Shown here: piece after piece, positions 17,369 through 20,059 of the stretch
Numbering within the stretch: the first letter of the stretch is position 1
How the letters are laid out: each line of letters begins with the position of its first letter
Assembly (NCBI RefSeq): GCF_015234135.1
Contig: NZ_JADGIK010000001.1
Span: 310,001 to 374,000, forward strand
Reading direction: 5' to 3'
Source: Faecalibacter rhinopitheci
Lineage (GTDB): Bacteria; Bacteroidota; Bacteroidia; Flavobacteriales; Weeksellaceae
DNA: 64,000 nucleotides
Notes under the pieces: generated by a model
What the model saw: only the letters and a program-made list of their open reading frames with translations
Databases searched by the model: none
What the model was told of the DNA's origin: nothing
Position numbers and translations under genes: made by a program

Positions 17369-19246
17369 ATGAACAAAGGAAGTATTAATGTATCGGTGGA
17401 AAATATCTTTCCGTTAATTAAAAAATTCTTATACTCTGATCACGAGATCTTTTTACGCGAATTAGTTTCAAATGCAACAGATGCTACGTTAAAATTAAAG
17501 CATTTAACAAATATCGGAGAAGCAAAAGTTGAATATGGAGAGCCAAAAATTGAGGTAAAAATCAATAAAGAAAATTCAACTTTACATATTATTGACCAAG
17601 GACTTGGTATGACAGCTGAAGAGGTGGAAAAATATATCAACCAAGTTGCTTTTTCTGGTGCAGAAGAATTTATTAATAAGCATAAAGATGCTGATGGAAT
17701 TATAGGTCATTTTGGGTTAGGTTTTTATTCTGCTTTTATGGTAGCGGACAAAGTAGAAATTATCACTAAATCTTTCAAAGATGAACCTGCAGCACATTGG
17801 ACGTGTGATGGTTCTCCAGAATTTACATTAGATGTAGCTGATAAAACAGATCGTGGTACTGAAATTATCTTACATATCGCTGAAGATTCTAAAGAATTCT
17901 TGGATGAGTGGAAAATCCGTGAACTTTTAACAAAGTATAATAAATTTATGCCTGTTCCAATTAAATTTGGAACACGTAAAGAAACATTACCATTACCAGA
18001 AGGAGCAGCTGAAGATGCAAAAGCAGAAGAAATAGAAGTTGATGATATCATTAATAACCCTACTCCAGCTTGGACGAAAGCCCCCTCTGATTTAACAGAA
18101 GAAGATTATTCAAAATTCTACCGTGAATTGTATCCAATGCAATTTGAGGATCCATTATTCCATATTCATTTAAATGTAGATTATCCGTTTAATTTAACTG
18201 GAATATTATTCTTTCCTAAATTAGGTAACAACATTAATATTGATAAAGATAAAATTCAATTATATCAAAACCAAGTGTTTGTAACAGATGAAGTAAAAGG
18301 AATTGTACCTGACTTCTTAATGTTATTACGTGGTGTAATTGATTCACCAGATATTCCGTTAAATGTTTCTCGTTCATACTTACAAGCTGACGGAGCAGTG
18401 AAAAAAATATCGGCTCACATTACCAAGAAAGTAGCAGATAAAATGGGTTCTCTAATTACTCAAAATCGTGAAGATTATGAGCAAAAATGGAACGACATTA
18501 AAGTTGTTATAGAATATGGTATGGTAACAGAAGATAAATTTTTTGAAAAATCTGACAAGTTTGCCTTATACCCTACAACAGACGGTAAATACTATACTTG
18601 GTCTGAATTAGAAGATAGAATCAAAGTAAATCAAACAGATAAAAATGGTAAAACTGTAGTCCTTTATTCAACGGATAAAGATGCACAAGATCAATATATC
18701 CAAATTGCTAATGAAAAAGGTTATGAAGTTATTTTCTTAGACTCTCCTATTTCGGCTCATCTAATCCAAAAATTAGAAGGATTAAAAGAAAATGTAACGT
18801 TTGCTCGTGTAGATGCTGATCATATTAATAACTTAATTGATAAAGATGAAGTTAAGATTTCAAAATTATCTGACGAAGATAAAGAGAAGTTAAAAACTCA
18901 AATTACAGAAGGAATTGATAATAAATCTTACACAGTACAATTAGAAGATTTATCTGCAACTGATGCTCCATTTATTATTACACAATCAGAATTTATGCGT
19001 CGTATGAAAGATATGCAAGCTACTGGAGGTGCAAATATGTTTGGTATGGGAAGTTTTCCTGAAATGTATAATGTTGTAGTGAATGCAAATTCAGATTTAG
19101 CTTCACAAATTCTAAGCAAAGAAAATGATGATGAACGCAAGGAAATAATCTCACATGCATTAGATCTGGCAAAATTATCTCAAGGATTGTTAAAAGGTAA
19201 AGAATTAACAAATTTTATCAATCAAAGTTTCAATAAAATTAAATAA
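17369..19246 (+). CDS. htpG: HtpG, Hsp90-family molecular chaperone
   Basis: The 625-residue protein has the GHKL ATPase domain: FLRELVSNATDATLK (Glu and Asn for ATP/Mg), DQGLGMT and GHFGLGFYSAFMVAD. The middle domain has LNVSRSYLQ with the catalytic Arg. The C-terminal dimerisation domain includes a Met-rich loop (RRMKDMQATGGANMFGMG). It ends without the eukaryotic MEEVD tail. Length matches the Bacteroidota form. A terminator follows at once, so it is monocistronic. Confidence 0.96.
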   Translation: MNKGSINVSVENIFPLIKKFLYSDHEIFLRELVSNATDATLKLKHLTNIGEAKVEYGEPKIEVKINKENSTLHIIDQGLGMTAEEVEKYINQVAFSGAEEFINKHKDADGIIGHFGLGFYSAFMVADKVEIITKSFKDEPAAHWTCDGSPEFTLDVADKTDRGTEIILHIAEDSKEFLDEWKIRELLTKYNKFMPVPIKFGTRKETLPLPEGAAEDAKAEEIEVDDIINNPTPAWTKAPSDLTEEDYSKFYRELYPMQFEDPLFHIHLNVDYPFNLTGILFFPKLGNNINIDKDKIQLYQNQVFVTDEVKGIVPDFLMLLRGVIDSPDIPLNVSRSYLQADGAVKKISAHITKKVADKMGSLITQNREDYEQKWNDIKVVIEYGMVTEDKFFEKSDKFALYPTTDGKYYTWSELEDRIKVNQTDKNGKTVVLYSTDKDAQDQYIQIANEKGYEVIFLDSPISAHLIQKLEGLKENVTFARVDADHINNLIDKDEVKISKLSDEDKEKLKTQITEGIDNKSYTVQLEDLSATDAPFIITQSEFMRRMKDMQATGGANMFGMGSFPEMYNVVVNANSDLASQILSKENDDERKEIISHALDLAKLSQGLLKGKELTNFINQSFNKIK

Positions 19247-19270: not shown

Positions 19271-19300
19271 AATCCTGCTTATTATTAAGCAGGATTTTTT
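19271..19300 (+). terminator. Terminator of htpG
   Basis: A ten-base perfect stem (AATCCTGCTT with AAGCAGGATT) and six-base loop are followed by a T-run. Confidence 0.85.
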
Positions 19301-19411
19301 ATTACTGAAATTCTATATTGATGTGTTAAATTATGATATTTTATGTATAAATATTTTTAATATATGATATTTGTCATTAAATTTACAATAGAAATAAAAA
19401 TAATCGTTCTC

Positions 19412-19564
19412 TTCTTTAAAATTATTGGAGGTTTTAAAACAGAACATTTTAAAAGTTATTTATATTTCTAATTGAAATTACAGCATAATTAAGATTATAA
19501 CTTAAAATGTTATTATTTTCATTATCAAATTTCTAAAAGGATGTCAAGTAATTGACATCCTTTT
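19412..19564 (+). ncRNA. Candidate noncoding RNA cassette 1 of 3
   Basis: It begins with TTCTTTAAAATTATTG and ends in a hairpin at 19535-19564: stem GGATGTCAA/TTGACATCC extended by four A-T pairs, with GTAA (GNRA) tetraloop and a T-run. It contains no open frame. Compared with cassettes 2 and 3 the stem has a compensatory G-C for T-A change, which points to selection on RNA pairing. Its interior is only weakly alike. The function is unknown. Confidence 0.45.
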
Positions 19565-19575
19565 ACACCCGAAAG

Positions 19576-19771
19576 TTCTTTGTAATTGTCAAATAGATTA
19601 TCTGTAAATCATGTGTATTTACTTCGGAAGATAAAATTTTATAGAATTAAAATTTGAGGTGCATTTAATCCATCAAATGACAATTTATTTTTATATATAG
19701 AACCTATACAATTACTATATTAATTATATATAGTATTTGGAAAGGATTTCAAGTAATTGAAATCCTTTTTT
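19576..19771 (+). ncRNA. Candidate noncoding RNA cassette 2 of 3
   Basis: It starts 11 bases after the first hairpin with TTCTTTGTAATTG and ends in the hairpin at 19741-19771 (GGATTTCAA, GTAA loop, TTGAAATCC, then T6). A segment around 19687-19716 (TATATATAGAACCTATACAAT) matches 23 of 30 positions in cassette 3 at a similar distance from the hairpin. There is no open frame. Confidence 0.45.
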
Positions 19772-19779
19772 ATAAGAAG

Positions 19780-19997
19780 TTCTTTAAAATTGATGAGTTA
19801 ATGATATGGTATTTAACTAAATAATTATAATAAATTTTATTAAGAGAATAATTTCCTGAGTAAACTTTCTTATTATAGAAGTAATTAATAAACAATTAAT
19901 TTATCAATTAATGTTATATATAGAGCGAATACAATAATTAAATTCATTATTGGATTAAGTTTTTGGGAAGGATTTCAAGCAATTGAAATCCTTTTTT
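19780..19997 (+). ncRNA. Candidate noncoding RNA cassette 3 of 3
   Basis: It starts nine bases after the second T-run with TTCTTTAAAATTGATG and ends in the hairpin at 19968-19997 (GGATTTCAA, GCAA loop, TTGAAATCC, then T6). The tetraloop differs from cassettes 1 and 2 but stays GNRA. The next element is the sdh terminator, so the array ends here. Confidence 0.45.
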
Positions 19998-20002
19998 GTA
20001 AA

Positions 20003-20033
20003 AAAAAAGGTGTAGAATAAATCTACACCTTTT
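20003..20033 (-). terminator. Terminator of the sdhCAB operon
   Basis: A 13-base perfect stem (AAAAAGGTGTAGA with TCTACACCTTTTT) has a five-base loop; the minus-strand tail is T-rich. Confidence 0.85.
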
Positions 20034-20059
20034 TAAGTATTATATCGAATGATTTCGAA

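Follow-up and report, generated by a model that had tools for sequence, protein, structure and literature searches.

The gap between htpG and sdhB of Faecalibacter rhinopitheci contains three tandem units, and each of them is closed by a near-identical, terminator-like hairpin with a GNRA loop. The question raised by this locus is what the units are and whether they work one by one or together. An earlier note, made from the letters of this DNA, had read them as a series of non-coding units of no known family, either small RNAs with a terminator each or a repeated RNA element. We analysed the window (the whole 64 kb stretch of DNA that contains the gap) together with 14 genomes of one GTDB genus (Empedobacter, Faecalibacter, Algoriella), which takes in Empedobacter falsenii, brevis, stercoris, sedimenti and tilapiae, Algoriella xinjiangensis and Faecalibacter macacae. 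On the sequence comparisons described below, the gap very probably holds a conserved, structured and non-coding RNA locus that is restricted to this genus.

Architecture and distribution of the array

The htpG gene ends at 19246 and sdhB is convergent to it. The array is bounded and divided as follows.

19271..19296, + strand: htpG terminator, the upstream boundary of the array
19534..19565, + strand: terminator-like hairpin of unit 1, GTAA loop, U-run of 4 (weak)
19740..19769, + strand: terminator-like hairpin of unit 2, GTAA loop, U-run of 6
19966..19995, + strand: terminator hairpin of unit 3 (the last), GCAA loop, U-run of 6
20004..20034, no strand assigned: bidirectional sdhB terminator, the downstream boundary of the array

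The nine-base core of the hairpin is GGATGTCAA in unit 1 and GGATTTCAA in both unit 2 and unit 3, and the two arms have changed together between units (G-C versus T-A), a double change that is seen again among the unit 1 copies of the congeners. Units 2 and 3 additionally have a block of 62 nt in common (73%), as recent paralogs would. The earlier note had described the three tandem GNRA hairpins with their two-arm change, the internal block of units 2 and 3 and the separate terminators of htpG and sdh, and all of this was borne out, with nine-base stems and loops matching. The T-run that it had placed after each hairpin is likewise present in every unit, although with lengths of 4, 6 and 6, and hence that of unit 1 is weak.

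The array was found in 12 of the 14 genomes, always in the htpG-sdhB gap, with two to four units each, at one locus per genome and with flanks conserved within the genus. In the two genomes that lack it, the gap either has another reading frame (G005) or is rearranged, with sdhC directly after htpG (G012). A covariance search, which the earlier note had proposed, was run with a model of unit 1 (R1) and matched 12 of the 14 congeners at E values of 1e-21 to 1e-39, each at a single locus; R1 was built from those same 12 sequences, yet no further genome or locus matches it. The R1 search of the rest of the family gave nothing convincing, and a weak match in one family member (G330) was rejected, being a match to the terminator only. 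Copies at several unrelated loci, as in a REP- or MITE-like dispersed repeat, were not found in these genomes. The common repeat with unrelated flanks that the earlier note had weighed against its own reading is therefore not what this genus has, since the array keeps to one locus with conserved flanks.

The bare hairpin, judged by the same comparisons, is not special, but the array is. The hairpin was not found at one mismatch or fewer in 297 other genomes of the order, and elsewhere (one genome for each of about 85,000 species) the sequence serves as an ordinary terminator, in most cases following a tRNA gene. A cross-phylum RNA element was considered and rejected, the matches in Emticicia, Sedimenticola and a Flavobacteriales MAG being terminators behind tRNA or protein genes. 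A phage origin was also rejected: the one match, 36 nt in a Cronobacter phage, is put down to chance, and no viral contig carries the hairpin. As a separate observation, two loci of Emticicia / Cytophagaceae (L066:4080-4560 and L071:2680-3130) have, behind a tRNA gene, three more tandem copies of its 3' half, each with the same GGATTTCAAGAAATTGAAATCC terminator; each tRNA half carries the GC-rich insert GCGGGGTCGCCCG, and the copies look like serial duplications of tRNA and terminator.

None of the families of Rfam 15 was matched by the array at its gathering score in the comparison that had been suggested, and low-score matches (STnc40, sraA, MicX and others) were rejected as noise from AT-rich terminators. 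The covariance models of 6S-Flavo (RF01685) and Flavo-1 (RF01705) did not match the array either; copies of Flavo-1 lie elsewhere.

Predicted fold and coding potential

All units examined are predicted to share a three-part fold. Domain I is usually closed by a GUUC/GAAC pairing, domain II is a hairpin, and domain III is the terminator hairpin, which abuts it directly. The first two domains of each unit are these.

19389..19470, + strand: unit 1 domain I, with the GUUC..GAAC hairpin and site 19412 inside (fold, covariation)
19474..19533, + strand: unit 1 domain II (fold, layout as in the congeners)
19575..19703, + strand: unit 2 domain I, closed by GUUCU (19575-19579) and AGAAC (19699-19703)
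19709..19739, + strand: unit 2 domain II hairpin (fold)
19779..19926, + strand: unit 3 domain I, closed by GUUCU (19779-19783) and AGAGC (19922-19926)
19932..19965, + strand: unit 3 domain II hairpin (fold)

Unit 1 was folded for six genomes and downstream units for seven, each on its own by minimum energy, and every fold had this layout, at z values from -2.8 to -6.8. When the terminator was removed, all 30 unit bodies still fell below their own shuffle mean (z -0.5 to -4.2), the weakest being unit 3 of the window, which at z -0.5 is barely better than its shuffles. In unit 1, where GUUC/GAAC forms the inner hairpin of a longer stem starting at the predicted RNA start, both sides have changed in 3 of 58 pairs when the Empedobacter clade is taken alone and in 4 of 27 across all 12 genomes, counts that rest on few independent lineages; with the partner strand slid as a control, none or one such change was left. 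The downstream units have the long-range GUUC pairing in 16 of 17 cases, versus 2.8 expected when the body is shuffled, and the partner strand lies mostly 33-48 nt before the terminator. Between unit types, U-A is exchanged for A-U at the fifth and sixth closing pairs. Domain I keeps its architecture while its sequence diverges fast. A possible pseudoknot, GTAATTG/CAATTAC, was noticed by eye in unit 2 of the window.

Across the 12 arrays, neither strand has an open reading frame of at least 20 codons whose position and sequence are conserved. Together, the 12 genomes, the fold, the covariation and the Rfam comparison uphold that part of the earlier reading in which the units are tandem, non-coding, each provided with a terminator-like hairpin and of no known family.

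The boxA-like motif at the start of downstream units

Units 2 and 3 of the window open with a motif that resembles the boxA of rRNA operons, a likeness that the earlier note had not recognised.

19573..19588, + strand: boxA-like motif of unit 2, AAGTTCTTTGTAATTG
19775..19792, + strand: boxA-like motif of unit 3, AGAAGTTCTTTAAAATTG, with GTTCTTTAAAA inside

A shared opening had been claimed for all three units, and it holds for the second and the third. Their common motif GTTCTTTNNAATTG belongs to these two only, with 2 matches in 64 kb against 0.22 expected, and GTTCTTTNNAATNG occurs in the window at 19575 and 19779 only. The supposed copy of unit 1, TTCTTTAAAATT at 19412, was rejected as a unit start on the congener alignment and on shuffles: it is part of a conserved hairpin, the congeners do not keep it, and it does no better than shuffled sequence.

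In the genus, GAGAAGTTCATTTGAAATTA stands in the rRNA leaders, about 140 nt ahead of the 16S gene, and AGAAGAGTTCATTGACATTATT in the spacer before 23S. In E. coli, the leader boxA is found at -147 to -133 (PMC10250234). The rRNA copies of the genus thus occupy the two places of boxA in E. coli, the leader and the pre-23S spacer. Elsewhere in the genus, unit 2 opens with AGAAGTTCATTTAAATTG (G001), with AGAAGTTCTTTTAAATTG (G007, G008) or with similar sequences. The pattern AGAAGTTCWTTN{0,3}AAATT, which was picked after both sequences had been seen, so that the absence of other matches and the shuffle test weigh more than the matches themselves, has 53 matches in the 14 genomes, all of them in rRNA-leader sequence or at the start of an array unit. 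The array-start matches are those of G000, G001, G007 and G008, and in the four genomes with checked 16S coordinates (G003, G004, G006, G011) every match stands directly before a 16S gene. By the shuffle test, the boxA match is significant in all twelve second units and in unit 3 of the window (p 0.002-0.018); no significant match was found in unit 1 or in most third and fourth units, those of the Faecalibacter-like clade included. The leaders of tmRNA and RNase P RNA were searched as well and do not have the motif. The string AAGCCGA, common to the rRNA leader and some units, was taken as coincidence; in rRNA it is complementary, by eye, to the 16S trailer.

The 11-mer GTTCTTTAAAA is a boxA that raises precursor-crRNA about ten-fold before a Legionella CRISPR array (PMC7862264), so that the very sequence tested there is also present in unit 3 of the window. 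Like the boxA-led rRNA operons and CRISPR arrays, the array is non-coding, with a motif that matches the rRNA leader of its own genus: the rRNA-type sequence is present in unit 2 of all arrays and in unit 3 of the window, and the lack of a conserved reading frame with a conserved predicted fold is what an untranslated transcript would have. Unlike them, it is made of short structured units parted by terminator-like hairpins, with no CRISPR repeats and no rRNA, and its motif sits inside the array and not only in a leader. In the fold predicted for the finished RNA, the boxA bases pair with a conserved anti-boxA, the GAAC strand, and before that strand is made the boxA would presumably be free. 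That the boxA functions as such is about as likely as not.

Transcription of the array and competing explanations

Ahead of unit 1 there is a promoter-like site, in which two elements of the window can be placed.

19365..19376, + strand: conserved palindrome TGATATTTGTCA (TGA-N6-TCA), kept in 12 arrays, single match in the window
19378..19386, + strand: -7-like element TAAATTTAC of the promoter-like site of unit 1

The element TAATTTTAC with TTTG 19-20 nt upstream is present in 11 congeners; in the window the -33 part is degenerate and the -7 part is kept. The full form TTTG-N19/20-TAATTTTA occurs in 11 of the 12 arrays, once each, ahead of unit 1, and closely resembles the Flavobacterium promoter consensus TAnnTTTG (PMC9723704). 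A consensus scan of the arrays found no such site ahead of the second or later units. In 12 of 12 arrays no internal U-run is longer than the last, and in 11 all internal ones are strictly shorter, a comparison that rests on few independent cases and lineages. The single promoter-like site and the graded U-runs suggest one start site with graded read-through, and we consider transcription from one promoter across the units fairly probable. The palindrome lies between the -33 and -7 regions of this site; it is like a CRP/FNR-type operator by resemblance only, and its version in Faecalibacter macacae is TGATAATTATCA.

The explanation that we favour, although we would put it a little short of an even chance as a whole, is an array with one promoter, read-through and boxA-opened downstream units, possibly linked to Nus factors. 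RNA polymerase would start at the single promoter ahead of unit 1 and produce a three-domain RNA of about 180 nt. A fraction of the polymerases would pass the weak first hairpin and make further units of the same architecture, until the stronger last hairpin is reached. The nascent boxA of unit 2 (and of unit 3 in the window) would recruit NusB-S10 and its partners, and the downstream GAAC strand, once it emerges, would capture the boxA and close domain I a short way ahead of the following terminator. Once complete, the downstream RNA could then be a Nus-factor-binding or Nus-responsive regulator tied to rRNA synthesis. In rRNA, the Nus complex increases processivity, and a tethering of the 5' end that lets long-range helices form has also been proposed for it (PMC10250234). 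In two-unit arrays the boxA stands in the last unit, where it can have no part in passage through the array, and Rho protection, help in folding and titration remain as alternatives. The array, its fold and the motif are seen by computation in the sequences, and from them we infer transcription, read-through, Nus recruitment and function. That the downstream RNAs are a Nus-linked regulator is, taken by itself, unlikely, and we regard as rather speculative the further idea of a contest for the boxA of a downstream unit between the Nus complex and the built-in anti-boxA, by which the array would sense or titrate Nus factors and act back on rRNA synthesis. If this further idea is true, non-coding transcription units with a boxA would include one more class next to rRNA operons and CRISPR arrays. 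The locus would allow Nus action outside these two to be tested in Bacteroidota, as well as the switching of boxA in cis by an antisense strand; few regulatory RNAs are understood in this phylum, and Empedobacter species can be cultured.

The strongest competitor, which we hold to be possible but somewhat unlikely, is that two to four independently transcribed, base-pairing regulators, each with a promoter and a terminator of its own, arose by duplication and that the likeness to boxA is a by-product of the GUUC/GAAC closing helix. Sibling sRNAs in tandem are known from other bacteria, Listeria LhrC1-4 being one example. The array is likewise intergenic and composed of tandem paralogous units, two to four in number and recently duplicated in the case of units 2 and 3, each with its own terminator-like hairpin (several internal U-runs are weak). 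Unlike sibling sRNAs, its second and later units have no promoter-like site of their own and begin only about 6-10 nt past the preceding T-run, domain I diverges fast in sequence, and the motif pattern is elsewhere confined to rRNA leaders. For the same two reasons, a conserved promoter-like site at unit 1 only and a motif so close behind the T-run, the earlier note's reading is not supported in so far as it makes each unit an independent gene.

A single promoter-like site and internal U-runs that are shorter than the last, down to 3, would also suit one non-coding RNA of about 600 nt, whose internal hairpins are structural or processing elements and from which an RNase cuts out the units. We consider this improbable, as some internal hairpins with 6-7 U have the look of full terminators and the identical hairpin sequence is a terminator behind tRNA genes elsewhere. 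A non-functional remnant, or a repeated terminator that insulates htpG from sdhB, would agree with the use of the hairpin as an ordinary terminator in other genomes and with the missing array of two congeners, but the conserved promoter block, the three-domain fold with compensatory changes and the separate termination of both htpG and sdhB make it very improbable. Tandem, terminator-ended units of about 200 nt are typical of some type I toxin-antitoxin systems, yet such a system, or a small-protein cluster, is scarcely credible in view of the missing conserved reading frame on both strands of the 12 arrays.

Among known systems, the array is most like tandem sRNAs and boxA-led non-coding transcripts combined. 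Rfp18 is described as one sRNA conserved in Flavobacterium (PMC9723704), a genus of a related family, and is likewise genus-wide, multi-stemmed and intergenic. The 6S-Flavo RNA is also a structured RNA of Bacteroidota but, unlike the array, is present as a single copy elsewhere in 14 of 14 genomes (G000:C1:508862-508987 in G000). In 14 of 14 genomes (L081-L094), its leader likewise keeps GAGAAGTTC, the nine bases with which the boxA region of the rRNA leader begins. The string lies some 70 nt ahead of the 6S match, where it closely follows the stop codon of the preceding gene and is itself followed by a small variable hairpin. The 6S-Flavo of the genus scores 45-54 bits (L081, G000) against an Rfam gathering score of 85, and annotation pipelines probably miss it there. 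Copies of Flavo-1 lie shortly downstream of several rRNA operon terminators (G011, G003, G006 and G004; L141-L144) and number at least 150 in G005; in this genus Flavo-1 has the look of a dispersed element.
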